Shown piece by piece: positions 17,083 to 37,923 of a stretch of DNA of 64,000 nucleotides (position 1 is the stretch's first letter; each line of letters begins with the position of its first letter). The position numbers and the translations under genes were made by a program. The stretch lies in NCBI GenBank assembly GCA_903932865.1, contig CAIZHQ010000023.1, positions 1 through 64,000 of the forward strand. Direction: 5' to 3'. Below the pieces are notes generated by a model. The model was not told the DNA's origin. It did no database searches and was given only the letters and a program-made list of their open reading frames with translations. Source of the DNA: an uncultured Burkholderiales bacterium (GTDB taxonomy: Bacteria > Pseudomonadota > Gammaproteobacteria > Burkholderiales > Burkholderiaceae_C).

Positions 17083-17098
17083 GGCCAAAGACACCCGC

Positions 17099-20839: not shown

Positions 20840-20868
20840 TCAAGCCCCTGCTGCCTGCTGCGACCCAC

Positions 20869-21936: not shown

Positions 21937-23535
21937 TCAATGCAAACGCGCCAGCTGACGCGGCACTCCGCGTGCTTGGGCCAGGGCGTGCACCGCCACG
22001 GCCAGGGCCCGGATGCCCGGGCCAATTTGCTCCATCCCGATGGAGGACAAGCGCATGCGAAAGAAGGGACAGGGATAAGGCGGTTGCATGAAAAACACCT
22101 CACCCGCTTCAATCAGGACACCCTGCTCACGCGCCATGAGCGCCAGTTCGGCGGTGTCCACCCAGTCGGGGGCTCGTACCCACACGGAGGCGCCGCCGGT
22201 GGGCAACTCGAACTGAAAATCTGGCAGCTCGCGCCGCAGCGCCTCACCCAAGGCCTGCATGCGTGCCTGCAAGGCCTGGTTCACGCGCCGGGCATGCGTC
22301 TCATGGTGCCCCAGCGACAAAAAGTGGGCAAAGGCATGCTGCAGAAATGCGCTGGGGTGACGCACCATGGCGTGGCGCAAAACCCGCAACTCGGCAATCA
22401 GGGCACGCGACGCCACGATGTAGCCCAAGCGCAAAGACGGTGACAAGCTCTTGGAAATTGAGCCCACATAAATCACACGCCCGACCTTGTCCAGGCTTTT
22501 GAGCGCAGGCACGGGTTCGCCCACATAAAGATTTTCGGCCTCGTAGTCGTCTTCGATGACCACAAAGTCGCGCTGCTCGGCCAGGGCCAGCAAATGCTTG
22601 CGCCGCTCCAGAGACAAGGTGCGCGTCGTCGGGCTCTGGTGCGAGGGCGTCACATACACATAGTCCAGCGGTGGCAAGTGTTCGACCACCAGCCCCTGAT
22701 CGTCCACCGCCAAGGGCTGCCACTGCGGCTCACGCGCAGCAAAGCTGTTGCGCGCATGCGGGTGCCCAGGCTCTTCCAGGCCTACGCGGGATTGGGCATC
22801 GAACAGGGCCTCGCCCAGCATGTAGTAGGCGTGCTGGGCGCCCACGGTGATCAGGATTTCTTCGGGCAGTGCAAACACCCCGCGCTTGGGCAAAAGGCGC
22901 AGACGAATCTGTTCAATCAACTCGGGCACATCGCTCAACTCAAAGTCAGGCGTCCACTGAGGCAAATGAACGCGTGCCAGGCTGTGCACACAACACTCGC
23001 GAAACGCTTCGGTCGGAAACAGCTGCGGATCAAAGGTGCCGTAAACGAAGGGGTAAGGGTATTGACGCCATTGGTCGGGCTTGGCCAGGGTGCGCCGGTC
23101 GCTCAGAGAGCGGATCAAACGCGCAGACCAGTCCGGCGAGGTCAGAGGGGCCATCGCGGGCGCCTCACGCTCGGGCGAGCTTTGTGGCATGCGCACAGGA
23201 TCGGGCAAGGCGTGGGCGCGCCAATCGGCCTTGGTGATACCGGATGAACGCGGATCGGCATGCACTTTGACAAACACACCGCTGCGCGGATGCGCTTCCA
23301 AAAATCCGTCGTCGATCAAGCGCATATAGGCCGAAGTGACTGTGTTGCGACTAAGCCCTAGCGCCTTGGCCAACTCTCGCGAGGAGGGCAAGGTGGCGCC
23401 GGGAGGCAAACGACCTTCCAAAATGGCCTCGACAGCAGCCAGCCGCAGGCGCTGCTGCAAGGGCATGGCGGGCTTGTCCTGCAAGGCAAACAAGCTCTCC
23501 CACTGGACATCTTTGGTGCGGTGTCGACTGGTCAT
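21937..23535 (-). CDS. MocR/PdxR-type transcriptional regulator (GntR HTH plus aminotransferase domain)
   Basis: A 532-residue regulator. The N-terminal winged-helix domain (about residues 24-95) has the GntR pattern LRLAAVEAILEGRLPPGATLP and SRELAKALGLSRNTVTSAY. The C-terminal class I aminotransferase fold has the PLP lysine context YVGSISKSLSPSLRLGY and the VIEDDYEAENLY motif. MocR proteins sense PLP-linked amino compounds. It is convergent with the ABC operon and divergent from the NTF2/oxidase genes. The chosen ATG (23533-23535) is 7 bases after TATACT, with no Shine-Dalgarno, so it may be leaderless. Repeated CTGGC elements precede it. Confidence 0.93.
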   Translation of the reverse strand: MTSRHRTKDVQWESLFALQDKPAMPLQQRLRLAAVEAILEGRLPPGATLPSSRELAKALGLSRNTVTSAYMRLIDDGFLEAHPRSGVFVKVHADPRSSGITKADWRAHALPDPVRMPQSSPEREAPAMAPLTSPDWSARLIRSLSDRRTLAKPDQWRQYPYPFVYGTFDPQLFPTEAFRECCVHSLARVHLPQWTPDFELSDVPELIEQIRLRLLPKRGVFALPEEILITVGAQHAYYMLGEALFDAQSRVGLEEPGHPHARNSFAAREPQWQPLAVDDQGLVVEHLPPLDYVYVTPSHQSPTTRTLSLERRKHLLALAEQRDFVVIEDDYEAENLYVGEPVPALKSLDKVGRVIYVGSISKSLSPSLRLGYIVASRALIAELRVLRHAMVRHPSAFLQHAFAHFLSLGHHETHARRVNQALQARMQALGEALRRELPDFQFELPTGGASVWVRAPDWVDTAELALMAREQGVLIEAGEVFFMQPPYPCPFFRMRLSSIGMEQIGPGIRALAVAVHALAQARGVPRQLARLH

Positions 23536-23648: not shown

Positions 23649-24041
23649 TTGTCAACCCCTGTCACCATCGCCACCCTCGAAGCCTTCTCCGACGCCTGGA
23701 ACCGCCACGATGTGGACGCACTGCTGAGCTTCATGCACCCCGATGGCGTCTTCATGACCGCGGGTGGCCCGGACGCCTGCGGCTCACGCCACCAGGGCCA
23801 CGAGGCCTTGCGCAAGGCCTTTCCGGGGGCTTGGGCCACCGTGCCTGATGCACAGTGGATCAACGGCAAGCATTTTGTTCAGGGCGACTTTGGTGTCTCC
23901 GAATGGACCTATGTCGGCACCGCCACCGACGGTTCGCGCGTGGAAACCGACGGTGTAGACATCTTTGCCTTCAAGGACGGCAAGATCCTCTCCAAAAGCG
24001 CTTTCCGCAAAAACCGCCCCAACCTGCCTGCCGCGAAATAA
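23649..24041 (+). CDS. SnoaL/NTF2-like protein
   Basis: A 130-residue single-domain protein of the NTF2-like superfamily. The typical first helix and strand pattern is ATLEAFSDAWNRHDVDALLSF with MHPDGVFMTAGG. Conserved sheet segments follow, ending DIFAFKDGKILSKSAFRK, where SAFRK is a common SnoaL/ketosteroid-isomerase-like tail. A catalytic role cannot be assigned. The start is TTG at 23649 with GGAG upstream. It precedes the FAD oxidoreductase by 68 bases and is likely co-transcribed with it, divergently from MocR. Confidence 0.8.
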   Translation: MSTPVTIATLEAFSDAWNRHDVDALLSFMHPDGVFMTAGGPDACGSRHQGHEALRKAFPGAWATVPDAQWINGKHFVQGDFGVSEWTYVGTATDGSRVETDGVDIFAFKDGKILSKSAFRKNRPNLPAAK

Positions 24042-24109
24042 GTTCACCTGCCGCCCGGTACCTGCCGCGCTGTCAGAGAAACCACCTTGCCCCTTTTCGA
24101 GAGCAGCTC

Positions 24110-25528
24110 ATGACGACCCACGCCCCCGCCCGCAGCGACACCCGATACGATCCCCAATACGACCCGCTGGTGCACGCCACCCCCGGTGCAGGCCGCGTCT
24201 ACGCGCCCAGCTACTGGGTCGCCAGTGCAGGCACACCACCGCCTGACGATGGTCCGGTGCGGCAGGACATGGATGTGGATGTGGTGGTCATCGGTGCGGG
24301 CTCGACCGGCATCTCAACCGCCCTGTACCTGGCGCAAGAACACGGCATTCAGGCTGTGGTGCTCGAAGCCAACCAAAGCGCCTGGGGCTGCTCCAGCCGC
24401 AGCGGTGGCCAGGGCCAAAACGCCAGCGGCCGCCTCTCGCGTGCGCAGTGGATCGAGCGCTGGGGCCTGGACGTGGCCAAAAAACTGGACACCGAAATCC
24501 GCACGGGCTTTGAGAACTTCAAAAACCTGGCCTTCGAAGTCGACTGCGACGCCACCGACGGCGGTCACCTGTATGTGGCACACCGCCCCGAAAAAGTCGC
24601 CTACCTGAAAGAGCAGGCCCGGGTTCGCAACGATATCTTTGGCTACCAAACCCAAATCCTCTCGGCCGACGAATTGCGGCAAAACCACTTCAACGACCAC
24701 GACGCCGCAGGCGCCATGTGGGAGCAAGAAGGAGTGGGCGTGCACCCGCTCAAGTTCACCTATGGCCTGATCCGCAAGGCCCGCGCCCTGGGTGTGTCAC
24801 TGCACACCGCGAGCCCCGTGCAAGGCTGGGAAACCATCCATGGCGTGCACCACCTGCGCACCCCGGGCGGCACCGTGCGCGCCAAACGCGTGGCGGTGTG
24901 CACCGGCGGCTACACCGGCCAGGCCCTGAGCCCGCTGACCAAAAACAAACTGCTGCCCATCTTGTCCAACAACATGGTCACCCAGCCCTTGACGCCAGCG
25001 CAAATTGAGGCCGCTGGCCTCAAAACCCGCGTCTTCCTGACCGACACGCGCACCCTGCGCTTTTACTACCGGCTGCTGCCTGACAACCGCCTGCAAATCG
25101 GCAGTCGCAGCGCCGTGACCGGGGCCGAAGCGCCCGAGCCCAAACACCTGAAACTGCTGACCGACGGCATTGCACGCAAATTTCCGACCCTGGCGGGCAT
25201 CCCCATCGAGCACTCCTGGTGGGGCTGGGTGGACGTGAGCCACGACATGATGCCGCGCATCACCCAACCCGACCCGAGCCAAAGCGTTTGGTACGCGCTG
25301 GGTTACGGCGGCAATGGGGTGTCGTTTTCCACCTGGGCGGGCAAGCGCCTGGCCGAGCGCGTGGCCGGCAAAGACGAAGGCCAGGAAGTCTTTCAGCTGC
25401 CGATCTACAACAGCGAACTGACCTACCCGCACTTTTTACACCTGTTCCGCTCCGAAGCCCTCGCCCCCTTCCGCCGCCTGGGCCAGCGGTGTTTGTACAA
25501 GTGGTATTGGTGGCAAGACGAGATGTGA
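24110..25528 (+). CDS. DAO-family FAD-dependent amine/amino-acid oxidoreductase
   Basis: A 472-residue flavoprotein of the DAO superfamily, resembling gamma-glutamylputrescine oxidase (PuuB). The dinucleotide motif VVVIGAGSTGISTALYLA lies at about residues 60-77. SSRSGGQGQNASGRLSR matches the second FAD-contact region, and the C-terminal GYGGNGVSFSTWAGK matches the family end. A roughly 55-residue N-terminal arm precedes the Rossmann fold, as in PuuB-like proteins. The substrate is an amine or N-alkyl amino acid by family, not proven here. A MocR regulator of amino-compound metabolism lies next door. The ATG at 24110 follows a weak GAGAG. Confidence 0.87.
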   Translation: MTTHAPARSDTRYDPQYDPLVHATPGAGRVYAPSYWVASAGTPPPDDGPVRQDMDVDVVVIGAGSTGISTALYLAQEHGIQAVVLEANQSAWGCSSRSGGQGQNASGRLSRAQWIERWGLDVAKKLDTEIRTGFENFKNLAFEVDCDATDGGHLYVAHRPEKVAYLKEQARVRNDIFGYQTQILSADELRQNHFNDHDAAGAMWEQEGVGVHPLKFTYGLIRKARALGVSLHTASPVQGWETIHGVHHLRTPGGTVRAKRVAVCTGGYTGQALSPLTKNKLLPILSNNMVTQPLTPAQIEAAGLKTRVFLTDTRTLRFYYRLLPDNRLQIGSRSAVTGAEAPEPKHLKLLTDGIARKFPTLAGIPIEHSWWGWVDVSHDMMPRITQPDPSQSVWYALGYGGNGVSFSTWAGKRLAERVAGKDEGQEVFQLPIYNSELTYPHFLHLFRSEALAPFRRLGQRCLYKWYWWQDEM

Positions 25529-25602: not shown

Positions 25603-26529
25603 TCAAGACACGGTTTGGTAGTACAGGTTTTGCGGATGGCGGGCCTGGGCGAAGAAGACCCAGCGTTCGGCCAAGAGGCCGATAAACTGCAGCAGCACAG
25701 CGCCCAGCCAGACCAGGGTCGACTGCGTACCGAGCAGGCCCAGCAAAAGCAAAGGCAGCGCAAACAACAGCAGCTGAAACACCCAGGGCATGCGGTGCAC
25801 GGTGCGGGCTGTGGCACCGTGAAAAAACTCGCGGGTGTTGAAGGAGCCGGCGGACATGCCCATGGATTTTTGCACCAGTTGCGGCCGGTGGATACCGGTG
25901 GCCGATTGAAGGCTTGACATGGGGGACAGGCGAGCATTACGGCGAAGGGCCTGGCGGCGCAGGAACCAGGCCAGCAAAGTGCTGACCAACACCCAAGGCT
26001 GCAACCAGGCCAGCAGCGCGGTTTGCCCAGTGGCACTGGCCAGAGCGCACAGCAGCACGCTGCCCGAACTCATGCCCAACAGGGTGAAGTTGATCACCGT
26101 GAGCGGGTGCGCCCACTCTTGCAAAAAGCGCAGGCAAGCGTAGATCATGGCGGTGCACACCCACAGCGCCAGCGAGACCCCCACCACCGCCGCAGACAGC
26201 ACCTGCAAGGCAAGGGTTGACGCGCCCAAGTACAAAGCCAGCCACCACAGCGCCACCCCCCCCATGAGCAGGGGCAGCACGATGACTTCGCGCGACATCC
26301 ACGAGGTGCGCCACATGGCCGCAGCCCGCCAGGCACGGGATTTTTGGCCAAGATGAAAAAACGAGGCCAGCAGACCACCGACCAGCAGCACTTCGGCCAA
26401 GGCAATGGCTGTGAGGGCAAAGCCCGTGTCCAGGGGCATCAGCCAGCTGGCCACGGCCAACGCCAGCAGCAGACCCTGGGCCGTACCGGACAGGGTGGTG
26501 AACAAAAGGATGGACCAGGCAGGACGCAT
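25603..26529 (-). CDS. soeC: membrane anchor subunit of sulfite:quinone oxidoreductase, DmsC/SoeC-like
   Basis: A 308-residue DmsC-type quinone-reactive membrane anchor with eight predicted helices, starting MRPAWSILLFTTLSGTAQG. Within this operon (Xsc, acetate kinase, Mo enzyme, FeS protein, anchor) it fits SoeC, which passes electrons from cytoplasmic sulfite oxidation to quinone. Alone it could be a DMSO-reductase anchor, so the name rests on context. It lies 7 bases downstream of the FeS subunit and is the last gene of the leftward operon. Confidence 0.8.
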   Translation of the reverse strand: MRPAWSILLFTTLSGTAQGLLLALAVASWLMPLDTGFALTAIALAEVLLVGGLLASFFHLGQKSRAWRAAAMWRTSWMSREVIVLPLLMGGVALWWLALYLGASTLALQVLSAAVVGVSLALWVCTAMIYACLRFLQEWAHPLTVINFTLLGMSSGSVLLCALASATGQTALLAWLQPWVLVSTLLAWFLRRQALRRNARLSPMSSLQSATGIHRPQLVQKSMGMSAGSFNTREFFHGATARTVHRMPWVFQLLLFALPLLLLGLLGTQSTLVWLGAVLLQFIGLLAERWVFFAQARHPQNLYYQTVS

Positions 26530-26536
26530 GTAGACC

Positions 26537-27331
26537 TCAATGTGGAGAAGTTTTACCCGCTGGGCTTGCCAGGGGCGTCACCGCCGCTGGGGTGACGCGG
26601 CGCGGCAAGTACTGGTTGGCCGGCCGGGTGTTCCACTCGGGCATCAGGGCATAACCGCCCCGTTCGCGGATGGCCTGACTGACTTCGCTGTTCGGGTCTT
26701 TCACGTCGCCAAACAGGCGGGCGTTGGTCGGGCAGGCATTGACACAGGCGGGTTTGCGGTCGGCTTCGGGCAGCAGGGGATTGTGGATGCGGTCCACGCA
26801 CAGGGTGCACTTGGTCATGATGCCGCTGGCTTCGTCAAATTCACGCGCACCATAAGGACAAGCCCAGGCGCAGTATTTGCAGCCGATGCATTTGTCGGCA
26901 TCGACCAGCACGATGCCGTCAGTCTGGCGTTTGTAGCTGGCGCCTGTGGGGCACACCGGAACGCAGGGCGGGTCTTCGCAGTGCAGGCAGCTTTTGGGAA
27001 AGTGCACCGTGTCGGTGTTCGGAAAGTTGCCCGCTTCGTAGGTCTGCACCCGGTTGAAAAAGGTGCCGGTGGGCTCAGCAGCATAAGGGTTGACATCGCT
27101 CAGCGGCCCGGCCATGCCCGAGGTGTTCCACTGTTTGCAGGCCGTCACACAGGCGTGGCAGCCCACACAAACGTTCAGGTCGATCACCAGTGCGAGCTGG
27201 CGCGCCAGTGTGGGGGTGTTGGTGTCCACTGCTGGCGCCGCGCCACCGCCACGGCCACCGGGCTCCATCAGATGGGGGCTGACAGAAGAGGGTGCATGGC
27301 CTTGTACAAGGTCTTTGAGCCACTGGATCAT
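26537..27331 (-). CDS. soeB: iron-sulfur subunit of sulfite:quinone oxidoreductase, SoeB-like
   Basis: A 264-residue DmsB/SoeB-type electron-transfer protein. Four Cys clusters are visible: VCVGCHACVTACKQWN, CLHCEDPPCVPVCPTG, KCIGCKYCAWACPYG and KCTLCVD with a later CVNACPTN. Together they would hold four [4Fe-4S] clusters that wire the Mo subunit to the membrane anchor. No signal peptide is present, so it is cytoplasmic. Its start overlaps the end of the catalytic subunit gene by 4 bases, and it is followed at 7 bases by soeC. Confidence 0.85.
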   Translation of the reverse strand: MIQWLKDLVQGHAPSSVSPHLMEPGGRGGGAAPAVDTNTPTLARQLALVIDLNVCVGCHACVTACKQWNTSGMAGPLSDVNPYAAEPTGTFFNRVQTYEAGNFPNTDTVHFPKSCLHCEDPPCVPVCPTGASYKRQTDGIVLVDADKCIGCKYCAWACPYGAREFDEASGIMTKCTLCVDRIHNPLLPEADRKPACVNACPTNARLFGDVKDPNSEVSQAIRERGGYALMPEWNTRPANQYLPRRVTPAAVTPLASPAGKTSPH

Positions 27332-30318
27332 GGTTTGGATTTCCCTGCAAAAAAGCGCATGACATGGGACACGCCCCCGCGAAAGCCTTGCACACCAGGC
27401 ACGGGGTGCATGGTGTCAACCTGCGGAAAACTCTGGGCCGCCTCTGCAGGCTCGGCCGGTCGAATGCGCACGCGCACGTCGTACCAGCCCGCCTGGCCGG
27501 TGATGGGGTCGGAGTTGCTGACCTTCGCACCGGCTGGCGAGCCCGTGCCTTGAGGAAGTGGCAATTCTTCCGAGATCAGGTGGTTGAGCAAAAAGCCTTT
27601 GCGCGCTTCGTCCGAACCAGGCGCCAGGTGCCAAGCGCCGTCGCCTTTGCCAATCGCGTTCCAGGTCCAGACGGTGCCCGGCTCCACAGCTTCGCTGTAG
27701 CGCAGCATGCAACGCACCTGGCCCCAGTGGCTTTCGACCCAAGCCCAGCCGCCATCGGCCACGCCCGCCGCCTGCGCGGTGCTGGGGTGCACATGCAGGT
27801 AGTTGTGGCTGTGAATTTGCCGCAGCCAGGCGTTTTGCGAGTCCCACGAGTGGTACATGGCCATGGGCCGCTGGGTGATGGCGTTGAGTGGGAAAGCCTT
27901 CAGGTCAACCGCAGCGTCTTCGAGCGGTGCATACCAAAACGGCAAGGGGTCGAAATAGGTGTTGATGCGTTCGCGCAGATGCTCGGGCGGCTGACGCCCT
28001 TTGGTTTTGCCTTGCGCGGCCAGACGAAAGGACTGCAAGGTGTCGGAATAAATGGCCAATTGCACCGGGTCGTTGCGTTGACGCCAGCCTTTGTCTTTGG
28101 CAAAGTCCAGGTAGTCACGATTCCAGTTGCGCATGTAATGCATGTTCTCGGGCAGGGTGTACTGGAACACGCAGTTGTTTTGCGCGTAGGTCTCCCACTG
28201 CTTGGGGTTGGGCGCGCCGCGCAGGTGCTGGTCACCGTTTTCGCCGCGCCAGCCCATCAAAAAACCAATGCCCGGCTGGGCCTCGAAGTTCACGATGAAG
28301 TCGGTGTAGCCCTTGAACTTGCGCCCACCCTCGGGCGTGGTGAAGGCCGGAAACTTCAGGCGCGAAGCCAGTTCCACCAGCACTTCCTGAAACGGCTTGC
28401 ATTCGCCCAAAGGCTGCAGCACCGGGACACGCACCGAGTCCACCGGGCCGTCGAACTCCGAAATCGGCCTGTCCAGCATGCTCATGGTGTCGTGCCGCTC
28501 CAGGTAGGTGGTGTCGGGCAGCACCAGGTCGGCAAAGGCCACGGTCTCGCTCTGAAAGGCGTCGCACACCACCAAAAACGGAATCATGTACTCGCCCTGC
28601 GCGTCCTTGCGGTTGAGCGATTCGCGCACGGACATGGTGTTCATGCTGCTGTTCCAGGCCATGTTGGCCATGAACAGCATCAAAGTGTCGATGCGGTAGG
28701 GGTCACCTTTGACGGCGTTGGTGATGACGTTGTGCATCATGCCGTGGGCCGACAGCGGGTGCTCCCACGAAAACGCGTGGTCGATGCGCATCGGCGTGCC
28801 ATCCGGGTGAATGGCCAGCTCTTCAGGGCTGGCCGGAAAACCCAGCGGCGCCGCGTTCAGCGGCGTGTTGGGTTTGACCATGTCCGGGTCGTTGAAGGCG
28901 CGGTAGTTGGGCACGATGTGACGCGGGTAAGGCGCTTTGTGTCTGAACCCCCCGGGCGCATCGATGGTGCCCAGCAGGCTCATGAGCACCGCCAGCGAGC
29001 GCACCGTTTGGAAACCGTTGGAGTGCGCGGCCAGACCGCGCATGGCGTGAAAAGCCAGCGGACGCGCCTGGGTGGTGGGGTGTTTTTTACCCCAGGCATC
29101 GGTCCAGGGGATGGGCAGCTCAAAGGCCTGCGTGAGGGCCGCATGTCCCATCTCCTGTGCCAGCAGGCGAATGCGATCTGCCGCAATGCCGGTGATGGCC
29201 TGCGCCCATTCGGGCGTGCAGCTGAGCACGCGCTGGCGCAACAGGGCAAAGGCAGGCACCACCCGCGTGCCATCGGCCAAGGTGTAGTGGCCTTCGGGCG
29301 GGGCGTCCAGTGCCGGGTCGCAACCGTCGGCAATGCCTTCAGGATAGGCATTCAGGATGCGGCCGCTTGTGCGGTCAAACACCAATTTGTTGTGCGGGTT
29401 GCGGCCGTCGCCGGGCGGGCCTTTGGCCGGGTCGGGGTCAAAGGCAAACAGGCCTTCGCGCTCGCCCTCGTCCAGCACCACCAGTTGCGGCGCGTTGGTG
29501 AATCGTTTCAGAAAAGCATGGTCCAGCGTGTCGGTGCGGACCAGTTCATGCAACAAGGCCATGAGCAGCGCGCCATCGGTGCCGGGCTTGATGGGAATCC
29601 ACTCGTCGGCAATGGCCGAGTAGCCGGTGCGCACCGGGTTGATGGAGATGAAACGACCGCCTGAGCGCTTGAATTTGGACAGCGCAGTTTTCATGGGGTT
29701 ACTGTGGTGGTCTTCGGCTGTACCCAGCATCACAAACAGTTTGGAGCGCTCCAGGTCCGGACCGCCAAACTCCCAAAAGCTGCCGCCCACGCTGTAGATC
29801 ATGCCGGCGGCCATGTTGACCGAGCAAAAGCCGCCGTGCGCCGCGTAATTGGGCGTGCCGAACTGGCGGGCAAACAAGCCTGTGAGCGCCTGCATCTGGT
29901 CGCGCCCGGTGAACAGTGCGAATTTTTTGGGGTCGGTGTTTCGGATGTACGCCAGGCGTTCACTCAGGATGTCAAAGGCCCGCTCCCAAGAGATGGGCTC
30001 AAACTCACCCGCCCCGCGTTCGCTGCCCGGTTTGCGCAGCAGCGGCTGCGTCAGGCGAGCTGGCGAGTACTGCTTCATGATGCCGGCCGAGCCTTTGGCG
30101 CAGATCACCCCCTGGTTGAGCGGGTGGTCCGGGTTGCCGTCGATGTAGCGCACCTCGGGGCCTTTGTCGCCTTCAACCAGGTGCACCCGAATGCCGCAGC
30201 GGCAGGCGCACATGTAGCAGGTGGTGCATTTCACGGTGGTCTGCGCCGTGGGGTTCGGCTCGGACAAGGGGTCCTGCAGGGTCGTCTGTTCAGAGGGCTT
30301 AGAAAACAGTTTCAGCAT
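27328..30318 (-). CDS. soeA: molybdopterin oxidoreductase catalytic subunit, SoeA-like sulfite dehydrogenase
   Basis: A 996-residue enzyme of the DMSO-reductase superfamily. The N-terminal [4Fe-4S] site is CTTCYMCACRCG with the fourth Cys in GVICAKGSAG, and the molybdopterin domains continue through the C-terminal MopD fold (HPSTAQAAGVADGGWAWVE). There is no Tat or Sec signal, which argues for a cytoplasmic enzyme and fits the SoeABC type that oxidises sulfite with quinone as acceptor. Co-location with xsc, whose product is sulfite, is the main reason to prefer sulfite over DMSO, polysulfide or tetrathionate as substrate. It overlaps ackA by 7 bases. Confidence 0.85.
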   Translation of the reverse strand: MLKLFSKPSEQTTLQDPLSEPNPTAQTTVKCTTCYMCACRCGIRVHLVEGDKGPEVRYIDGNPDHPLNQGVICAKGSAGIMKQYSPARLTQPLLRKPGSERGAGEFEPISWERAFDILSERLAYIRNTDPKKFALFTGRDQMQALTGLFARQFGTPNYAAHGGFCSVNMAAGMIYSVGGSFWEFGGPDLERSKLFVMLGTAEDHHSNPMKTALSKFKRSGGRFISINPVRTGYSAIADEWIPIKPGTDGALLMALLHELVRTDTLDHAFLKRFTNAPQLVVLDEGEREGLFAFDPDPAKGPPGDGRNPHNKLVFDRTSGRILNAYPEGIADGCDPALDAPPEGHYTLADGTRVVPAFALLRQRVLSCTPEWAQAITGIAADRIRLLAQEMGHAALTQAFELPIPWTDAWGKKHPTTQARPLAFHAMRGLAAHSNGFQTVRSLAVLMSLLGTIDAPGGFRHKAPYPRHIVPNYRAFNDPDMVKPNTPLNAAPLGFPASPEELAIHPDGTPMRIDHAFSWEHPLSAHGMMHNVITNAVKGDPYRIDTLMLFMANMAWNSSMNTMSVRESLNRKDAQGEYMIPFLVVCDAFQSETVAFADLVLPDTTYLERHDTMSMLDRPISEFDGPVDSVRVPVLQPLGECKPFQEVLVELASRLKFPAFTTPEGGRKFKGYTDFIVNFEAQPGIGFLMGWRGENGDQHLRGAPNPKQWETYAQNNCVFQYTLPENMHYMRNWNRDYLDFAKDKGWRQRNDPVQLAIYSDTLQSFRLAAQGKTKGRQPPEHLRERINTYFDPLPFWYAPLEDAAVDLKAFPLNAITQRPMAMYHSWDSQNAWLRQIHSHNYLHVHPSTAQAAGVADGGWAWVESHWGQVRCMLRYSEAVEPGTVWTWNAIGKGDGAWHLAPGSDEARKGFLLNHLISEELPLPQGTGSPAGAKVSNSDPITGQAGWYDVRVRIRPAEPAEAAQSFPQVDTMHPVPGVQGFRGGVSHVMRFFAGKSKP

Positions 30319-31598
30319 CTTGTGTCTCCTGGCGCGAACACCATGCGCCAGGTGTGGCGGGCGATCACGGCTTCTTCGTTGGTGGCCAGCACATACACCG
30401 GCACACGGCTGCTGGGCGCGCTGATCAAGGTGCCGCCCGGGCCCGGACGGCCACGCTCGCGGTTACGGGCTTCGTCCAGTTCACAGCCCATCCATTGCAG
30501 GCCCTGCACGATTTCGCCACGCAGGGCATGGGCGTTTTCGCCAATGCCACCGGTGAAAACCAGCGCATCCAGGCCCTGCACGGCGGCGGCCATGCCCGCG
30601 ATTTCGCGCCGGGTGTGTTCGGCAAAATAGGCCAGCGCCATGCGCGCTGCCGCGCTGTCTGACTGCGTCAGGCTGCGCACATCGCTGGAGGTGCCCGACA
30701 GGCCCAAGAGGCCGGACTGGCGGTAAAGCAAATCCGTGATGGCCTCGGCACCCAAGCCCTGCGCCAGCAGGTGCAGCACCACGGCGGCATCGAGCCGACC
30801 ACAGCGCGTGCCCATGGGCAAGCCATCGAGCGGCGAAAACCCCATGGTGGTGGCCACCGAGCGCAAACCGCGCAGGGCGCACAGCGAGGCCCCGTTGCCC
30901 AGATGCGCCACCACCACACGGGCTTCAGGCTGGGCCAGCTCGGACCGCGACTCGCGCAACTGGTCCGAAATGGATTCATACGACAAACCATGGAAACCGT
31001 AGCGGCGAATGCCTTGTTCAAAGCAGCTTTGCGGCAAGGCGTAGCGCTGGTGCAGCTCGCTTTGGCTGCGGTGAAAAGCCGTGTCCGGACAGGCCACTTG
31101 CGGCACCTGGGCAAAGGCCTCACGCGACGCATGGACCCCGGCCAAGTTGTGCGGCTGGTGCAGCGGCGCCAAGGGGGTCAGGGCCTGCAGCTGGGCGATC
31201 AGCGCATCGTCCACCCGCACAGGCCCAGCCAGTTCGGGGCCACCGTGCACGATGCGGTGCCCCACCGCCACCACACGAACGTTTTGGGCGTGCACCGAGA
31301 GCCAATGCAAGATGCTCTCCAGGGCCGTGGCATGGGCTGAGATAGCCTGGCCCTCAGAGCCCTTGTGCACAGACGCATCCCCAAAAGGGGCCAGTGGCAC
31401 GCTGTGTTGCAAACCGCCCAGCCCCTGGATGTCCAGCCGCGCAGAAGCTTGCCCCAGTCCCTGAGCCTGGCCCGAATAGACCGGAGAATCGAGCACCGCA
31501 CCGCCCCCTTGCGCCGAGACCTCGGCCACAGCAAACAAGGCGAACTTGAGCGAAGAAGACCCCGCGTTCAGCGTGAGCACATGGTCTTGCATGGTCAT
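30312..31598 (-). CDS. ackA: acetate kinase
   Basis: A 428-residue ASKHA-fold kinase that makes ATP and acetate from acetyl phosphate. Motifs are VLTLNAGSSSLKFALF at the N-terminus, the active-site stretch HRIVHGG, HLGNGAS, the signature MGFSPLDGLPMGTRCG and the adenosine motif FTGGIGENA. Acetyl phosphate is the direct product of Xsc, encoded just upstream (stop 14 bases from this start), so it completes that pathway with substrate-level ATP. No phosphotransacetylase gene is present in the locus. Alternative start ATGs are at 31598 and 31592. Confidence 0.94.
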   Translation of the reverse strand: MTMQDHVLTLNAGSSSLKFALFAVAEVSAQGGGAVLDSPVYSGQAQGLGQASARLDIQGLGGLQHSVPLAPFGDASVHKGSEGQAISAHATALESILHWLSVHAQNVRVVAVGHRIVHGGPELAGPVRVDDALIAQLQALTPLAPLHQPHNLAGVHASREAFAQVPQVACPDTAFHRSQSELHQRYALPQSCFEQGIRRYGFHGLSYESISDQLRESRSELAQPEARVVVAHLGNGASLCALRGLRSVATTMGFSPLDGLPMGTRCGRLDAAVVLHLLAQGLGAEAITDLLYRQSGLLGLSGTSSDVRSLTQSDSAAARMALAYFAEHTRREIAGMAAAVQGLDALVFTGGIGENAHALRGEIVQGLQWMGCELDEARNRERGRPGPGGTLISAPSSRVPVYVLATNEEAVIARHTWRMVFAPGDTRC

Positions 31599-31612
31599 GC
31601 GCCCAGGTGTGC

Positions 31613-33430
31613 TCAGACGTAGTCCTTGTACTTGTCCAAGAAGCGGATCGGCTTGGCCAGCGCGTCGCGGCGGAAGGGATCACCCAACTCGCGGTTGCAC
31701 ATGATCTCGATCACGCAGGTCTTGCGCTGGTTCATCTGCAGGTCGATGGCCTTTTTCAGGGCCGGGCCCACGTCTTCGAGGCGATCCACCACGATGCCTT
31801 GGGCACCCATGGCCTGGGCGATGCCCGCAAAGCTTTCGCTTTCCAGCTCACCGGCCACAAAGCGGCGGTTGTAGAAGTCCACCTGGTTTTTCTTTTCGGC
31901 ACCCCATTGGCGGTTGTGAAAGACCACCGCTGTGACCGGAATGTCGTGACGCACAGCCGTCATGACCTCGACCATGCTCATGCCCCAAGCGCCGTCACCG
32001 GCATAGGCCACTGCCGGGCGGTCAGGCGCGGCGCACTTGGCACCGATCATGGTGGGCAGCGAGTAGCCGCAATTGCCAAAGCTCATGGGCGCGAAGAAGC
32101 TGCGGGGTTCGTCAAAGCGCAGGTAGCTGTTGGCCACGGCGTTGATGTTGCCAATGTCGGTGGACACCATGACGCGCGGCGGCATGGCTTTTTCCAGCTC
32201 GCGCAGCACTTGGCGGGGCGACAGGTAGGTGCCGCCCGTGGGGGTGCGCTCGCCCTTGGCCTCTTCCACCATGTCCAGGCTGAAGGGGTCTTTTTCGTGG
32301 GTCCAGGCGTCGAGTTCCTTTTCCCAGGCGTCTTTTTCGGCCTGGATTTTGGCGGCGCGCTCGGCCTTGTTGGCATCACAGGCCAGGGTGCGGGCCGACA
32401 GGCGCTTGAGCAGCTCGATGGCCACCGCCTTGGCGTCACCGTGGATGCCCACGGTGATTTTCTTGACCAAGCCCAAATTGGTGTGGTCGGCTTCGACCTG
32501 GATGATCTTGGCGTCTTTGGGCCAATAGTCCATGCCGTGCTGCGGCAAGGTGCCAAACGGCCCCATGCGCGAGCCCAGTGCCACCACCACGTCAGCCTGT
32601 GCGATCAACTTCATGGCCGCCTTGGAGCCCTGGTAACCCAGAGGGCCAGCCCACAGCGGGTGGCTGGCCGGGAAAGAGTCGTTGCGCAAATAGCCGTTGG
32701 CCACGGGTGAGCCCAGGCGCTCGGCCAGGGCCACGCACTCCTTGACCGCGTCCCCCATGACCACACCGCCGCCCGACAAAATGACCGGGAACTTGGCGTT
32801 GGCCAGCAGCTCCACCGCGGCGTTCAGGCTGTTTTCGCCGCCCGCACCGCGTTCCACGCGCATGGGTTGCGGAATTTCACAACTGATTTCGCCGTAGAAA
32901 TAGTCGCGCGGGATGTTCAGCTGGGTGGGTCCCATTTCCGAGATGGCACGGTCAAAGCAGCGCGCCGTGAACTCGGCCATGCGCTTGGGGTTGTTCACAT
33001 GGCCCTGGTACTTGGTGAATTCCTGAAACATGGGCAGCTGCTGCGCTTCCTGGAAGCCGCCCAAGCCCATGCCCATGGTGCCGGTTTCGGGGGTGATCAT
33101 GACCACCGGGCTGTGTGCCCAATAGGCCGCCGCAATGGCGGTGACGCAGTTGCTGATGCCCGGGCCGTTTTGGCCGATGACCACGCCGTGGCGGCCGCTC
33201 ACACGGGAATAGCCGTCCGCCATGTGCGCCCCGCCCTGCTCGTGCACCACCGGGATCAATCGAATGCCTGCGGGGGCAAAGATGTCCATGGCGTCCATGA
33301 AGGCCGAGCCCATGATGCCGAACATGTCGGTCACGCCGTTGGCGACCATGGTCTCCACAAAGGCCTCGGACGGCGTCATCTTCTGCACGCCGCTGGCCAC
33401 GGTGCGTTTGTCGGTTTTGGGGGTGCTCAT
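31613..33430 (-). CDS. xsc: sulfoacetaldehyde acetyltransferase
   Basis: A 605-residue thiamin-diphosphate enzyme that converts sulfoacetaldehyde and phosphate to acetyl phosphate and sulfite, the desulfonation step of taurine, isethionate and other C2-sulfonate degradation. The N-terminal domain has the catalytic-Glu context VVHEQGGAHMADGYSR and NGPGISNCVTAIAAAYW. The C-terminal ThDP site is AYAGDGAWGMSMVEV followed by VVFHNRQWGAEKKNQ. Length and the AEKKNQVDFYNRRF segment fit Xsc rather than acetolactate synthase. The ATG at 33430 has AGGAG upstream; a longer reading to 33544 runs into the promoter. It heads the leftward xsc-ackA-soeABC operon. Confidence 0.93.
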   Translation of the reverse strand: MSTPKTDKRTVASGVQKMTPSEAFVETMVANGVTDMFGIMGSAFMDAMDIFAPAGIRLIPVVHEQGGAHMADGYSRVSGRHGVVIGQNGPGISNCVTAIAAAYWAHSPVVMITPETGTMGMGLGGFQEAQQLPMFQEFTKYQGHVNNPKRMAEFTARCFDRAISEMGPTQLNIPRDYFYGEISCEIPQPMRVERGAGGENSLNAAVELLANAKFPVILSGGGVVMGDAVKECVALAERLGSPVANGYLRNDSFPASHPLWAGPLGYQGSKAAMKLIAQADVVVALGSRMGPFGTLPQHGMDYWPKDAKIIQVEADHTNLGLVKKITVGIHGDAKAVAIELLKRLSARTLACDANKAERAAKIQAEKDAWEKELDAWTHEKDPFSLDMVEEAKGERTPTGGTYLSPRQVLRELEKAMPPRVMVSTDIGNINAVANSYLRFDEPRSFFAPMSFGNCGYSLPTMIGAKCAAPDRPAVAYAGDGAWGMSMVEVMTAVRHDIPVTAVVFHNRQWGAEKKNQVDFYNRRFVAGELESESFAGIAQAMGAQGIVVDRLEDVGPALKKAIDLQMNQRKTCVIEIMCNRELGDPFRRDALAKPIRFLDKYKDYV

Positions 33431-33478
33431 GGGCTGCTCCTGAAAAAATAGGGGGATCACAAAGATTTGAAACTTGGG

Positions 33479-33495
33479 GTTCCGAAATCCGAAAC
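33479..33495. promoter_or_regulatory. candidate IclR operator in front of xsc
   Basis: GTTCCGAA (33479-33486) and TCCGAAAC (33488-33495) form an imperfect palindrome around a central A, with 6 of 8 arm positions complementary. It would lie just downstream of the predicted xsc start site (near 33497), a typical repressor position. The divergent IclR gene is the obvious candidate binder. Confidence 0.4.
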
Positions 33496-33503
33496 TGAAG
33501 GTG

Positions 33504-33532
33504 ACTATAGACAGCCGCCCCCCACAAATCAA
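33504..33532 (-). promoter_or_regulatory. candidate sigma70 promoter of the xsc operon
   Basis: Read on the minus strand, TTGATT (33527-33532) and TATAGT (33504-33509) are 17 bases apart, close to consensus. The start would be near 33497, giving a leader of about 67 bases before xsc. Confidence 0.5.
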
Positions 33533-33594
33533 TCGAAATTTCACTTATCGATCCGATTTGTTCCATTTTTCGGGTTTTCCACTATGATGCAGCG

Positions 33595-34401
33595 ATGTCA
33601 CTCGCCCCCGTCCCCCTGCCCGCATTGGCCCCCGCAGAAATCAACGGGGACACGCCCACCCTGCGCCTGTTTGCCCTGCTGGAGGTGATTGCCAGCAAAA
33701 GCAGCTACTTCTCGCTGCAAAACCTGGCCGATGAAACCGGTCTGCCCAAGGCCACCTTGCACCGCATGCTGCAGCAACTCGAAAGCGCGCATTTGCTGGA
33801 GCGCACCGCCGACGCCCGGCTTTACGGCACGGGCAATCGGCTGCGCAAACTGGCAGAAAACCTGCTCATCAACGACACCGCGCACGGCGCGCGCCACGCT
33901 GTGCTGCGCCATCTGGTCAACGAAGTGGGCGAGAGTTGCAACCTGACGGCCTTGAGCGGCAGCGAGGTGATCTACCTGGACCGGGTGGAGACATCGGCCC
34001 CCTTGCGCTTTTACCTGCACCCGGGCTCGCGGGTGCCCGTGCATTGCTCGGCCAGCGGCAAAGTGTTTTTGTCACAAATGAGCCCGACCCAACGCCAGCG
34101 CCTGCTGGCCCATGCCCCGCTGGACACTTACACCCCCAAAACCCTGACCGACATGGCTGCGCTGGAGCAAGAAGTCAAGCAGGTCAAGCGCCAGGGCTTT
34201 GCACTGGACAACGAAGAATTTTTGCCCGGCCTGATGTGCGTGGCGGTGTTGGTGCCTTCGGCGCAGGGCACATCCAACCTTTGCGTGGCGGTGCAGGCGC
34301 CAGTGTTGCGCCTGACACCGGAGCGCTGCCTGCAACTTTTGCCAGCCCTGCAACGCGCAGCCCAAGCCATCAGTGCCATTGAAACCGAGGCCATGCCATG
34401 A
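33595..34401 (+). CDS. IclR-family transcriptional regulator
   Basis: A 268-residue regulator with an N-terminal winged helix (about 22-85: FSLQNLADETGLPKATLHRMLQQL) and the IclR effector domain (SGSEVIYLDRVETSAPLRF, VHCSASGKVFLS, GFALDNEEFLPGLMCVAVLV). It is divergent from xsc and leads a rightward four-gene set, so it probably controls both directions. TATGAT at 33583-33588 ends 6 bases before the ATG, and no Shine-Dalgarno is visible (GCAGCG), which suggests a leaderless message. Its stop overlaps the next start as ATGA. IclR, rather than the MocR-type TauR, is one of several regulator types seen near xsc genes. Confidence 0.92.
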   Translation: MSLAPVPLPALAPAEINGDTPTLRLFALLEVIASKSSYFSLQNLADETGLPKATLHRMLQQLESAHLLERTADARLYGTGNRLRKLAENLLINDTAHGARHAVLRHLVNEVGESCNLTALSGSEVIYLDRVETSAPLRFYLHPGSRVPVHCSASGKVFLSQMSPTQRQRLLAHAPLDTYTPKTLTDMAALEQEVKQVKRQGFALDNEEFLPGLMCVAVLVPSAQGTSNLCVAVQAPVLRLTPERCLQLLPALQRAAQAISAIETEAMP

Positions 34402-35345
34402 ACACCTCCCCCGATCTGCAGCGCCTGGATGTGCGCAGCATTTTTGGCATCGACAGCCCTCTCAAGGTCACCGGCTTTCGCGAACGCTCCGAGCATGTGC
34501 CCGACATTGACCCCGATTACCGCTTCAACCGCGAAGTCACTTTGGCCCTCCTGGCCGGTTTTGAACACAACCGCCGGGTCATGCTGCAAGGCCTGCACGG
34601 CACCGGAAAATCCACCCACATTGAACAAGTGGCCGCTCGGCTGAACTGGCCTTGTGTGCGCATCAACCTGGACGGGCACCTGAGTCGCCTGGACCTGGTG
34701 GGGCGCGATGCGGTGGTGCTGCGCGACGGCCAGCAGGTGACCGAATTCCAGCCCGGCATCGTGCCGTGGGCGCTGCAGCGGCCGGTGGCGCTGATCTTTG
34801 ACGAGTACGACGCGGGTCGGCCCGAGATCATGTTCGTGATCCAGCGACTGCTGGAGCGTGACGGGCAATTCACCCTGCTCGACCAGAACCAGGTGATCAA
34901 GCCGCATGCGCAATTTCGCCTGTTTGCCACCAGCAACACGGTGGGCCTGGGCAACCTCAATGGCCTGTACCACGGCGCCCAGCAACTCAACCAGGCCCAG
35001 ATGGACCGCTGGAACATTGTGGCCACGCTCAACCACCTGCCGCCCGAGCAAGAGATGGCCATCGTGCGCGCCCGCGTGCCCAGCATGCGCGACGACGCCC
35101 GCCAGGCTCAGCTGCAGGCCATGGTGCAGTTTGCCAACCTCACGCGCCAGGGCTTCAAGGTAGGCGACTTGTCCACCCTCATGTCACCGCGCAGCCTGAT
35201 CAGCTGGGCCGAAAACCTGGACATCTTTGGTGACTTGCAGCTGGCGCTTTACCTGAGCTTCATCAACAAGGGCGACGAGTCCGAACGCCCGGTGCTGGGC
35301 GAGTATTTTCAGCGCTGCTTTGACCAGGAGCTGGGCACGCCATGA
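34398..35345 (+). CDS. CobS-like AAA+ ATPase (MoxR/cobaltochelatase family)
   Basis: A 315-residue AAA+ protein closely resembling the CobS subunit of aerobic cobaltochelatase. It has an N-terminal arm (VRSIFGIDSPLKVTGF), Walker A LHGTGKST, Walker B PVALIFDEYDAGRP, sensor-1 RLFATSNTVGLG, and the CobS-specific GLYHGAQQLNQAQMDRW. CobS and CobT form a chaperone-like motor that drives metal insertion by CobN; no cobN or other cobalamin gene is present here. Position inside the sulfonate locus, coupled to IclR upstream and CobT-like downstream by ATGA overlaps, implies a role in that pathway, possibly enzyme maturation. That role is inference. Confidence 0.88.
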   Translation: MNTSPDLQRLDVRSIFGIDSPLKVTGFRERSEHVPDIDPDYRFNREVTLALLAGFEHNRRVMLQGLHGTGKSTHIEQVAARLNWPCVRINLDGHLSRLDLVGRDAVVLRDGQQVTEFQPGIVPWALQRPVALIFDEYDAGRPEIMFVIQRLLERDGQFTLLDQNQVIKPHAQFRLFATSNTVGLGNLNGLYHGAQQLNQAQMDRWNIVATLNHLPPEQEMAIVRARVPSMRDDARQAQLQAMVQFANLTRQGFKVGDLSTLMSPRSLISWAENLDIFGDLQLALYLSFINKGDESERPVLGEYFQRCFDQELGTP

Positions 35346-37126
35346 GCGAGGCGGGTTTGGCGGCTGTACCTGGCGCGGGAACGGGCGCAGACCATGGCGG
35401 CCTGAGCGAGCAAGCCCTGCTGCGTCAACAGCACGCGCAAGACGATTTGTGCGCGGCCAGCGCCCGTGCCCTGAGCGCCGAGTCCCAGCTGCACTACCGC
35501 CAGCGCCGCCTGTACCGCAACCATCAACGCCTGCCCGACTTTGCCCCCCACCTGCACCCTGTGCATGGACAGGACGACTGGCGCTCGTTTCGCGCCGCCA
35601 GCGACGGTGCGGCGTTGCGCCTGCGCCATTCCGATGCGGCGCTGCACCACACGCTGTGCCAGCGCCAGCCACTGATGCCGCTCGAGCGGTTGATCGTGGA
35701 AATGCTGGAGCAAATCCGCGTCGAGTCACTGGCCACGGAGTTGGGCCTGCCCGGTGCAGCGCACAACCTGCACCACCGTTTCGAGGTCTGGGCCGTGGCG
35801 CTGGGCCAGTCGGATCTGGCCGAAACCGTGCAAGGCCTCACGCTGCTGACGGTGGCCCTGATCTGCCGCTCAAGGGTGGTGGGCGAGGCTGTGCCCGAGG
35901 CGCTGATGGACTTGATCGAATCCACCCGCTTTGACTTGTCCGAAGTCATTGGCCACGACGTGAGGGGCCTGCGCCTGACGCGTCACAACCAGGCCCTTTA
36001 TGGCGAGCACGCCCTGAACATTGCCCGCAGCGTCGCCCAGCACACGGTGGCTAGCCAGCAGCAGCCCCCCGCCAAGAGCATCAACCCGGCACAGCCCACG
36101 CGCGAGCGCTTGTCGCTGTGGATCGACTTTGAGGGCGGCGAGGACAAGGACGCGACCATCGCGGCACCGGGCCGCAGCCTGAGCCCCGAAGAGGTGTTGC
36201 GCGGCTACACCGTCTTCACCACCGCCTATGACCGCACAGTGCAGGCGGCAGACTTGGTGCGTGCGGCCGAGCGGCAAGCCCTGCGCCTGCAGCTGGACGA
36301 GCGCATCGCCCAGCAAGGCGTGGCCTTGCAGCCGCTGGTGCGCCAACTCAAGGTGCTGCTGAGCCCGCCGCGCTGGCAGGGCCATGACAACGGCCAAGAC
36401 GAAGGCCGCATCGACGGCAGCCGCCTGTCGCAGCTGGTGGCCAACCCGCTGCAGCGGCAGCTGTTTGTGCGCGAACGCCAGCGCCCTGTGCCCGATGCGG
36501 CGGTGTGCTTTTTGATCGACTGTTCGGGCAGCATGAAGGCGCAGCGGGAATCCATCGCCTTGCTGGTGGATGTGATGAGCCGCGCCCTGGACCTGGCGGG
36601 CATACCCTGCGAGGTGCTGGGTTTCACCACCGGTGCCTGGAGTGGCGGGCGCGCCCTGCGCGACTGGCGCCGCGCCGGTCAGCCGCCCGCACCGGGCCGA
36701 CTGAACGAGCGCTGCCACATCGTCTTCAAACCCGCCGAAAAAGCCTGGCGCTTGGCCCGGCGCGACATCGCGGCCCTGCTCAAACCCGATCTGTACCGCG
36801 AATGCCTGGATGGCGAAGCCCTGCTGTGGGCCGAACAACGCTTGCTGGCGCAAAGCGCCTCTCGCCGCATTCTGCTGGTCATCTCGGACGGCTGCCCGAG
36901 CGACAGTGCCACGGCGCAAACCAACGACCCCTTGTACCTGGAGCAGCATTTGCTGGCCGTGACCGATCGCATGGAACGCAGCGGCCGCGTTGAGCTGACC
37001 GCTCTGGGCGTGGGCCTGGACATGAGTGGCTATTACCGCCACAGCGACATGCTCGACCTGTCGGACTTGCAAGGCCAGCGGGTCTTCACGCAAATTCTGG
37101 GGGCCTTGCGACCACGACGAAGATGA
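35342..37126 (+). CDS. CobT-like protein with C-terminal VWA domain
   Basis: A 594-residue protein resembling cobaltochelatase CobT. The N-terminal half is helical and charged. The C-terminal von Willebrand A domain (about 380-590) has an intact MIDAS DCSGSM and the CobT-type segments EVLGFTTGAWSGG, GRLNERCHIVFK, LDGEALLWAEQRLL and ILLVISDGCPSDS. The acidic linker usual in CobT is shorter here (DFEGGEDKD). It should act with the CobS-like ATPase encoded immediately upstream (4-base overlap). It overlaps the TSUP gene downstream in the same way. The client protein or metal is unknown. Confidence 0.87.
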   Translation: MSEAGLAAVPGAGTGADHGGLSEQALLRQQHAQDDLCAASARALSAESQLHYRQRRLYRNHQRLPDFAPHLHPVHGQDDWRSFRAASDGAALRLRHSDAALHHTLCQRQPLMPLERLIVEMLEQIRVESLATELGLPGAAHNLHHRFEVWAVALGQSDLAETVQGLTLLTVALICRSRVVGEAVPEALMDLIESTRFDLSEVIGHDVRGLRLTRHNQALYGEHALNIARSVAQHTVASQQQPPAKSINPAQPTRERLSLWIDFEGGEDKDATIAAPGRSLSPEEVLRGYTVFTTAYDRTVQAADLVRAAERQALRLQLDERIAQQGVALQPLVRQLKVLLSPPRWQGHDNGQDEGRIDGSRLSQLVANPLQRQLFVRERQRPVPDAAVCFLIDCSGSMKAQRESIALLVDVMSRALDLAGIPCEVLGFTTGAWSGGRALRDWRRAGQPPAPGRLNERCHIVFKPAEKAWRLARRDIAALLKPDLYRECLDGEALLWAEQRLLAQSASRRILLVISDGCPSDSATAQTNDPLYLEQHLLAVTDRMERSGRVELTALGVGLDMSGYYRHSDMLDLSDLQGQRVFTQILGALRPRRR

Positions 37127-37923
37127 ACATCGGGTCCCTTTTCTCGTTGCCAGAAAACGCCAATGCCATCAGCCTGCTGCTGAGCAGCGGGGTGGTGCTG
37201 TTTGCCGGTTTTGTGCGAGGGCTGACAGGCTTTGGCTTTTCGGCCCTGTGCGTGAGCTGCCTGTCGGTGTTCCTGCCGCCTGCGCAAGTGGTACCCGCTC
37301 TCTTTGTGCTCGAAATTTTGGCCAGCCTCAGCCTGCTCAAAACCTGTTGGCCCGATGTGCACTGGTCTTGGCTGCGGGTGCTGATTCTGGGCAATGTGGT
37401 GTTCATTCCGCTGGGTGTGCTGACCCAGCAAAGCCTGCCCGCCGACACCCTGCGCCTGTTGATTGCGGGGATCATCGGCGTGATCGCTCTGGCGCAGCTG
37501 CAGGGTCTGCGGCCACAAGGCCCGCCTGGCAAAGCCCTGCAATGGGGCACCAGCATGGTCAGTGGCTGGCTCAACGGGCTGGCGGCCATTGGCGGCATTG
37601 CGGTGGCCATGGTGTTCAACCAAACCCGGCTGGCCCCGGCGGTGATGCGGGCCAGCCTGTCGGTTTTTTTCTTGTTCACCGATCTGTTCGCCCTGATGTG
37701 TCTGTTCGGCATGAGCAGTCTGGGCATCGTGCCTGCGAGCATGCAGGACATCACCGGCCCCACCGCTTTTTGGTCAATCGCCTGGCTGCCCGCCATGCTG
37801 CTGGGCATCTGGCTGGGGCACCAGCAAAGTGACAGGATATCGCCCGAACGTTTTCGGCGGGGTGTGCAAATCTTGCTGTTGCTGATCGCCTTGCTGATGG
37901 GCCTGCGGGTCGGGCTGGCGTGA
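37123..37923 (+). CDS. TSUP/TauE-SafE family membrane transporter, probable sulfite exporter
   Basis: A 266-residue integral membrane protein with about eight helices and the duplicated TSUP pattern: GFVRGLTGFGFSALCVSC in the first half and SGWLNGLAAIGGIAVAM in the second. The family (TauE, SafE, YfcA) exports sulfite, sulfoacetate or related anions, and members are often encoded beside xsc. Sulfite is produced by Xsc in this locus, so export as a safety valve alongside SoeABC oxidation is the likely role. The ATG overlaps the CobT-like stop by 4 bases. Confidence 0.85.
   Translation: MNIGSLFSLPENANAISLLLSSGVVLFAGFVRGLTGFGFSALCVSCLSVFLPPAQVVPALFVLEILASLSLLKTCWPDVHWSWLRVLILGNVVFIPLGVLTQQSLPADTLRLLIAGIIGVIALAQLQGLRPQGPPGKALQWGTSMVSGWLNGLAAIGGIAVAMVFNQTRLAPAVMRASLSVFFLFTDLFALMCLFGMSSLGIVPASMQDITGPTAFWSIAWLPAMLLGIWLGHQQSDRISPERFRRGVQILLLLIALLMGLRVGLA

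Follow-up and report, generated by a model that had tools for sequence, protein, structure and literature searches.

Locus organization

We analysed a window of 64,000 nucleotides (positions 1 to 64,000 of contig CAIZHQ010000023.1, assembly GCA_903932865.1) from an uncultured Burkholderiales bacterium, in which genes for the breakdown of taurine surround a CobS-like AAA+ ATPase and a CobT-like von Willebrand factor A (VWA) protein. Taurine is an abundant organosulfonate, and sulfoacetaldehyde acetyltransferase (Xsc) catalyses the shared desulfonation step of C2-sulfonate breakdown. We propose, with a probability of roughly 0.6, that the AAA+/VWA pair is a chaperone or activase dedicated to one clade of Xsc, here called Xsc-I, within a complete taurine-dissimilation locus of about 24 kb (Table 1); which protein is the client, where the pair docks on it and what the pair does there are predictions.

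The first-pass annotation had covered nine open reading frames (ORFs) of this locus, all of which lie at the positions given, with every coordinate correct. It described xsc, ackA and three soe-like genes as a tightly packed leftward operon (gaps of 14, -7, -4 and 7 bases) and the divergent iclR, cobS-like, cobT-like and TSUP genes as joined by three 4-base overlaps, and both arrangements were confirmed. Its outline of a C2-sulfonate module, with Xsc, AckA, a SoeABC-like enzyme and a TSUP exporter, was right. The locus genes recur as clusters across many other genomes, so their grouping here is not due to chance. The possibility that the thiamine diphosphate (ThDP) enzyme is an acetolactate synthase was decided in favour of Xsc, because it scores 1047 bits with TIGR03457 (cut-off 676) and 312 bits with the best acetolactate synthase model. 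One claim failed: the gene producing sulfoacetaldehyde had been placed outside the window, but tauXY lies inside it (23649-25528), the end of tauY being 74 bases from the edge at which that annotation stopped, and the functional locus reaches about position 13522. The CobS-like and CobT-like genes, which had been given no function, are the unusual part of the locus.

Table 1 Features of the taurine-dissimilation locus, in window coordinates
Feature	Position	Strand	Evidence and remarks
Opp/Dpp-type ABC transporter, whole	13522-19137	+	Pfam SBP_bac_5, BPD_transp_1, OppC_N, ABC_tran, oligo_HPY; starts approximate
Opp-type binding protein	13522-15111	+	Start approximate
Opp-type permeases	15200-16177, 16174-17082	+	Starts approximate
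Opp-type ATPases	17099-18130, 18127-19137	+	Starts approximate
YtcJ/COG1574-like amidohydrolase	19166-20839	+	Amidohydro_3 233 bits; COG assigned by us from the Pfam match
CobW/COG523-type GTPase, possible metal chaperone	20866-21876	+	cobW 159 bits
TauR, MocR-type regulator (GntR + aminotransferase fold)	21937-23535	-	Pfam GntR + Aminotran_1_2
TauX, taurine dehydrogenase small subunit, SnoaL-like	23649-24041	+	SnoaL_2 82 bits; 48% to S. meliloti gene between tauC and tauY
TauY, taurine dehydrogenase FAD subunit	24107-25528	+	DAO 200 bits; 54% to S. meliloti gene at tauY position
SoeC-like membrane anchor	25603-26529	-	DmsC 52 bits; xsc-linked in other genomes; no NCBIfam match
SoeB-like 4Fe-4S subunit	26537-27331	-	Fer4_11 and others
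SoeA-like molybdopterin subunit	27328-30318	-	Molybdopterin + Molydop_binding
AckA-type acetate kinase	30312-31598	-	TIGR00016 322 bits (cut-off 293); slot held by Pta or Ptb-like Pta in relatives
Xsc, sulfoacetaldehyde acetyltransferase, clade Xsc-I	31613-33430	-	TIGR03457 1047 bits; ATG start; tree; clade-specific loop
Divergent regulatory region, xsc/iclR	33431-33594	.	Sequence
IclR-family regulator	33595-34401	+	IclR_C 132 bits
CobS-like AAA+ ATPase, proposed Xsc chaperone motor	34398-35345	+	AAA_5/CobS_N; TIGR01650 472 bits, below cut-off 558
CobT-like VWA protein, proposed Xsc adaptor	35342-37126	+	CobT/CobT_C; TIGR01651 279 bits, below cut-off 759
TSUP (TauE/SafE) exporter	37123-37923	+	PF01925 96 bits

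The tauXY genes are convergent with soeC, and tauR is divergent from tauXY. On plasmid pA of Sinorhizobium meliloti (L119) the gene order is regulator < tauA > tauB > tauC > SnoaL > DAO > xsc, and Paracoccus pantotrophus (L118) has the same order. Alignment of our own queries with their counterparts at these two loci gave identities of 40-42% for the regulator, 40-48% for TauX and 54-55% for TauY; both records lack annotation, and the queries for tauA, tauB and tauC were genes of other loci recognised by NCBIfam. Taurine catabolism in S. meliloti requires TauR, TauC and TauY (available part of PMC4254191). We assigned the names TauR, TauX and TauY on the basis of this gene order, these identities and that gene requirement. 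A SnoaL-like TauX followed by a DAO-type TauY stands beside a TauR of MocR architecture, in the order of the characterised operons, and TauXY is predicted to oxidise taurine to sulfoacetaldehyde; no solved structure matched TauY at 1e-20. Because all three proteins match S. meliloti taurine genes in order and identity, taurine is the most likely substrate.

The arrangement of TauR, TauX, TauY and Xsc and the divergent regulator are common to this locus and the S. meliloti and Paracoccus clusters (TauR-TauABC-TauXY-Xsc-Pta). The window differs in carrying Xsc-I, to which the alphaproteobacterial Xsc are 45-46% identical, in having AckA for Pta, Soe-like genes in the xsc operon and an Opp transporter in the place of TauABC, and in the added CobS-like/CobT-like pair.

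The CobS-like and CobT-like proteins

Cobaltochelatase CobNST provides the nearest sequence relatives of the pair. Identities of 58-63% to 30 CobS of other classes, and a score of 424 bits to CobS in the PDB, would suit genuine or relict cobaltochelatase subunits hitch-hiking in the locus. We regard this as highly improbable, and rejected a cobaltochelatase function, because both proteins fall below their equivalog cut-offs, the genome holds no CobN, the CobS-like proteins form a separate clade and the acidic linker of CobT is missing. The cobS-like gene is the sole CobS match in the genome, and both of its CobN-family matches are magnesium chelatase BchH, with neighbours that we read by eye as bacteriochlorophyll genes. 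Among 22 searched genomes of the window's class, two had CobN over the cut-off, weaker matches (for example, 599 bits in G154) being left unassigned except in the window's own genome. The absence of CobN is a weak argument by itself, because two of four CobS-carrying control genomes of other classes also gave no CobN match. The BchH matches sit at the ends of two contigs of the window's genome (contig 16, L035; contig 24, L036), so its photosynthesis gene cluster seems to be split by the assembly. The other protein called CobT, 5,6-dimethylbenzimidazole phosphoribosyltransferase, was likewise rejected as an identity, because the genome carries one separately, on contig 15.

In a tree of 72 CobS sequences picked from 161 matches, all 40 sequences from Xsc genomes fell on one side of a 100/100 branch, with 30 CobS of other classes and the two Burkholderiales CobS that have no linked Xsc (G172, G249) on the other; genomes labelled 'alpha' in our trees are of the same phylum and another, presumed, class. 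At these two Burkholderiales loci (L135 and L136, respectively), CobS-CobT lies outside the Xsc-type clade with no Xsc nearby, in one case near ORFs resembling TonB receptors, so AAA+/VWA pairs of this kind occur in a second genomic context.

Walker A and B motifs are intact in 79 of 79 CobS-like sequences. The metal-ion-dependent adhesion site (MIDAS) reads DCSGSM in 72 of 76 CobT-like sequences (the other four gave no pattern match), as opposed to DNSGSM in all six partial CobT of other classes, and the highest acidic share per 50 residues has a median of 0.26 (0.16-0.38, n=76) versus 0.48-0.52 (n=6) where the linker is present. Residues D393, S395, S397, T430 and D516 are invariant (36/36), and T430 and D516 would, by our assignment, complete the MIDAS. 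The genes thus have the makings of a MoxR pair: an ATPase with intact Walker motifs and, overlapping it by 4 bases, a VWA partner with a full MIDAS (DxSxS-T-D). A structure model of the CobT-like protein (mean predicted local distance difference test 83, predicted template modelling score 0.68) found its best PDB fold match in the VWA domain of NorD in NorQD, followed by the MIDAS domains of Rea1/MDN1; the NorD match covers the VWA part only (E 9.6e-8; template modelling score 0.59 on the target and 0.31 on the whole model).

Co-occurrence with Xsc-I

Among 300 genomes of the order, 37 carry Xsc and 15 a CobS-like protein. With Xsc-I defined as at least 80% identity to the window's Xsc (the other Xsc genomes of this sample lie at 62-72%), a CobS-like protein of the Xsc-type clade occurs in 12 of 13 Xsc-I genomes and in none of the 24 with other Xsc (1/24 for any CobS, in G172; Fisher p 7e-9 for 12/13 versus 0/24, uncorrected for relatedness). 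The exceptions in this sample are G224, which has Xsc-I without the pair, and G214, in which a CobS-like match of 141 residues, assigned to the Xsc type on identity alone, lies at a contig end and no Xsc was found.

Named genomes, some of which look identical to members of the order sample, gave a similar picture. The cobS gene lies within the DNA examined at 68 of 80 Xsc-I loci, at a median distance of 2.4 kb, and at 49 of the 56 loci in which the midpoint of xsc is flanked on each side by 9 kb or more. Ten of the 12 loci without local cobS were searched genome-wide (L039 and L071 being outside that search), and nine of these genomes have cobS. A tree of 56 hand-chosen Xsc rows from 54 loci united the 43 rows with CobST and two without (L068, L138) in a single clade (98/93) with members from Rhodococcus, Amycolatopsis and Cobetia. 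In a check blind to Xsc, the CobS model matched 99 of 249 genomes of the phylum, including six of the window's class; four of these belong to the window's order and all have Xsc-I, and the two from another order (G531, G568) have Xsc-I directly divergent from cobS. No Xsc was found within the 20 kb fetched around six lower-scoring CobS matches of other classes. Among the papers listed, our literature search found no report joining Xsc with CobS, CobT, MoxR or VWA proteins; most subscription papers were outside the search, and an earlier mention is possible.

The Xsc-I proteins share sequence features of their own. Across 102 Xsc-I and nine Xsc-II sequences, an acidic loop at about residues 386-399 is specific to Xsc-I (E390 in 99/102, E394 in 102/102) and is absent or shortened in all nine Xsc-II, and a C-terminal D-Y/F-V occurs in 101/102 versus 1/9. 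Repeats were omitted from this comparison (L039, L074, L120, L129, L192 and L198, as well as L001-L020 except L005); the Xsc-I rows retain near-copies, and the alpha row L118 is mostly gap and uninformative.

Candidate clients of the pair

Xsc-I is the client that this co-occurrence predicts. Maturation of the taurine dehydrogenase TauXY would be another role for the pair, one that we consider quite unlikely. It would account for some Cupriavidus in which the pair stands beside tauR-tauXY and not xsc, and full-length TauY and the CobS-like protein co-occur in 11 of 300 genomes, with TauY only in three and the CobS-like protein only in two. That count takes TauY at full length and at least 56% identity (14/17 genomes) and omits G135 and G148 (41-43%) and G180 (partial, 59%), none of which has a CobS-like match. 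However, a search of 50 of the 77 listed named loci, mainly those without local tauY, found TauY (E 1e-100) in 42 of 50 genomes, and seven of the eight without it keep cobST beside xsc, including Rhodococcus opacus, two Amycolatopsis and Diaphorobacter aerolatus (complete chromosome). Similarly, G344 (92% complete) combines the pair with Xsc-I in the absence of TauY, G221 and G310 combine TauY with Xsc-II and lack the pair, and the TauXY of S. meliloti adjoins an enzyme that is not Xsc-I.

The absence of TauY from eight of 50 named Xsc-I genomes also bears on the substrate. Xsc acts at a step common to C2 sulfonates, and both points would agree with a locus whose main substrates are isethionate, sulfoacetate or other C2 sulfonates and which handles taurine only incidentally. 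Against this, tauR and tauXY adjoin in this locus, and the congeners L026 and L027 also have tauABC beside tauR; we judge such a role very unlikely, and retain taurine.

The pair could also serve some other shared step, such as sulfite handling, the molybdenum site of SoeABC or TSUP, or a component of Xsc-I loci that has so far escaped notice. NorQD-type pairs do insert metals (available parts of PMC9976466 and PMC13036017), but soeA was found in the DNA examined at 20 of 80 named loci versus 68 for cobS, and the TSUP cluster of the window occurs in 7 of 97 loci, with a second TauE-family cluster in 14, which makes this reading unlikely. Since seven of the eight TauY-less named genomes keep cobST and soeA is local in 20/80 loci only, we consider TauXY and SoeABC less likely clients than Xsc-I. 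Genomes such as G240, in which xsc and cobST are ~31 kb apart (L139, L140), and those with two xsc copies each (L106 and L115), could help to separate Xsc from TauXY as the client.

Several observations weigh against a chaperone dedicated to Xsc-I in a taurine locus. G224 (about 99% complete) carries both Xsc-I and TauY and no CobS-like protein at E 1e-50, and the pair is therefore not essential in every case; L068, a metagenome-assembled genome, also lacked the pair in the genome-wide search. Both of these pair-less Xsc-I genomes retain E390 and E394, and the acidic loop may therefore have another role. Xsc-II and alphaproteobacterial Xsc occur without the pair, so Xsc chemistry itself is independent of it. 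In the Cupriavidus genomes mentioned above, the pair lies ~18-24 kb from xsc (L208-L210, L141). Finally, no TauR box of the Rhodobacter capsulatus type (CTGGACYTAA, up to 2 mismatches) was found before tauX, opp or xsc, although the box of this lineage may differ. Only the Xsc of G224 departs from two residues that are constant in all the other sequences, A52 (T in G224) and L58 (F in G224), near the active-site segment of the N-terminal ThDP domain; a tie to the missing pair, noticed post hoc and on a long branch, is only suggestive.

Proposed pathway and mechanism

Taurine, possibly together with a conjugate that the Opp-type transporter would import and the amidohydrolase would cleave, would be converted by TauXY to sulfoacetaldehyde, from which Xsc would release sulfite and acetyl phosphate. 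AckA would then yield ATP and acetate, the SoeABC-like enzyme would oxidise sulfite to sulfate and TSUP would export the anion, with TauR and IclR as putative regulators.

In the model set by CbbQO and NorQD, the VWA protein attaches by its MIDAS to an acidic client residue, and the client is remodelled by the AAA+ ring (available parts of PMC4660213, PMC9976466 and PMC13036017), and from this model we infer the same mechanism for Xsc-I. The CobT-like protein would dock through its MIDAS metal on the acidic loop, and the AAA+ hexamer would spend ATP on opening Xsc-I, either to free the ThDP site of a dead-end inhibitor or adduct or to aid cofactor loading. The act itself may be clearance of a dead-end ThDP adduct, cofactor loading or assembly. 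The full proposal is tentative, and we put it at slightly less than even odds: the pair would be an ATP-driven activase of a ThDP enzyme, evolved with one Xsc clade and docking at E390/E394, that frees or loads the active site as CbbQO does for Rubisco.

The Rubisco activase CbbQO likewise combines a MoxR AAA+ protein with a VWA partner, whose MIDAS engages an acidic residue on one particular client enzyme (PMC4660213, available part); here the client would instead be a ThDP enzyme, and the N-terminal part of the VWA protein is CobT-like. NorQD, which acts in nitric oxide reductase maturation, supplies the top fold match of the CobT-like model, but the client here would be soluble, no metal insertion is known and the N-terminal domain is different.

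Should the proposal hold, one Xsc clade would have its own ATP-driven chaperone, which would change how Xsc should be expressed and assayed, and MoxR AAA+/VWA machines would gain a new class of client. In taurine degraders from more than one phylum, many genes now called 'cobaltochelatase' would be Xsc activases, and a likely misannotation in genomes that lack CobN would be corrected. The pairing makes clear predictions that are testable by co-expression in Escherichia coli.

Other genes of the locus and window

The longest xsc ORF extends to a GTG at 33544. One sigma-70-like match points towards xsc (33532-33504, minus strand), with 0.2 expected. IclR-type genes, paralogues counted, occur in 59 of 97 clustered loci, three of them loci of the window's own genome without xsc.

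The gene after xsc is variable. Across 87 loci, including two pairs of identical DNA, it encodes AckA in 10, Ptb-like Pta in 33 and Pta in 24, with none within 1.5 kb in 15 and a contig-end cut in five; no locus has two. The slot is exchanged even within the window's own genus (AckA in L022, L024 and L025; Ptb-like Pta in L021, L023, L026 and L027). This agrees with PMC5320631 (section 14), in which TauR regulons never hold Pta and AckA together.

The Soe naming is plausible and provisional: the three genes combine molybdopterin, 4Fe-4S and DmsC-type domains with linkage to sulfonate genes. For soeA and soeB, NCBIfam scores fall far short of the cut-offs, and there is no SoeA model among the matches listed for soeA. 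No twin-arginine signal was seen by eye in the N-terminus of the SoeA-like protein, and a search for a solved structure of a close SoeA gave only thiosulfate reductase. Some Rhodobacterales TauR regulons include bisC, dmsC and hybA (PMC5320631, section 14), which look like SoeABC-type subunits in our reading.

Comamonadaceae TauR regulons include OppABCDF, COG523 and COG1574 proteins (Suvorova and Rodionov 2016; PMC5320631, section 14), the same set that accompanies TauR here. This locus differs from that section, which describes beta regulons as lacking ackA and names neither CobS nor CobT; the term 'cobs' has 0 occurrences in the main text of that paper. The genes at 13522-21876, beside tauR, hint that the cell may take up and cleave a conjugate of taurine, such as an N-acyl taurine, and not free taurine alone.

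Elsewhere in the window, long ORFs with the codon bias usual for this genome are scarce at positions ~48000-55900, which are possibly foreign or decayed DNA. No rRNA was found that would account for this ORF-poor 48-56 kb part, and the only RNA gene found is a tRNA at its edge (55920-56006, minus strand). At 45960-47980, ORFs resemble, on reading by eye, an aromatic ring-cleavage dioxygenase subunit and a flavin hydroxylase.

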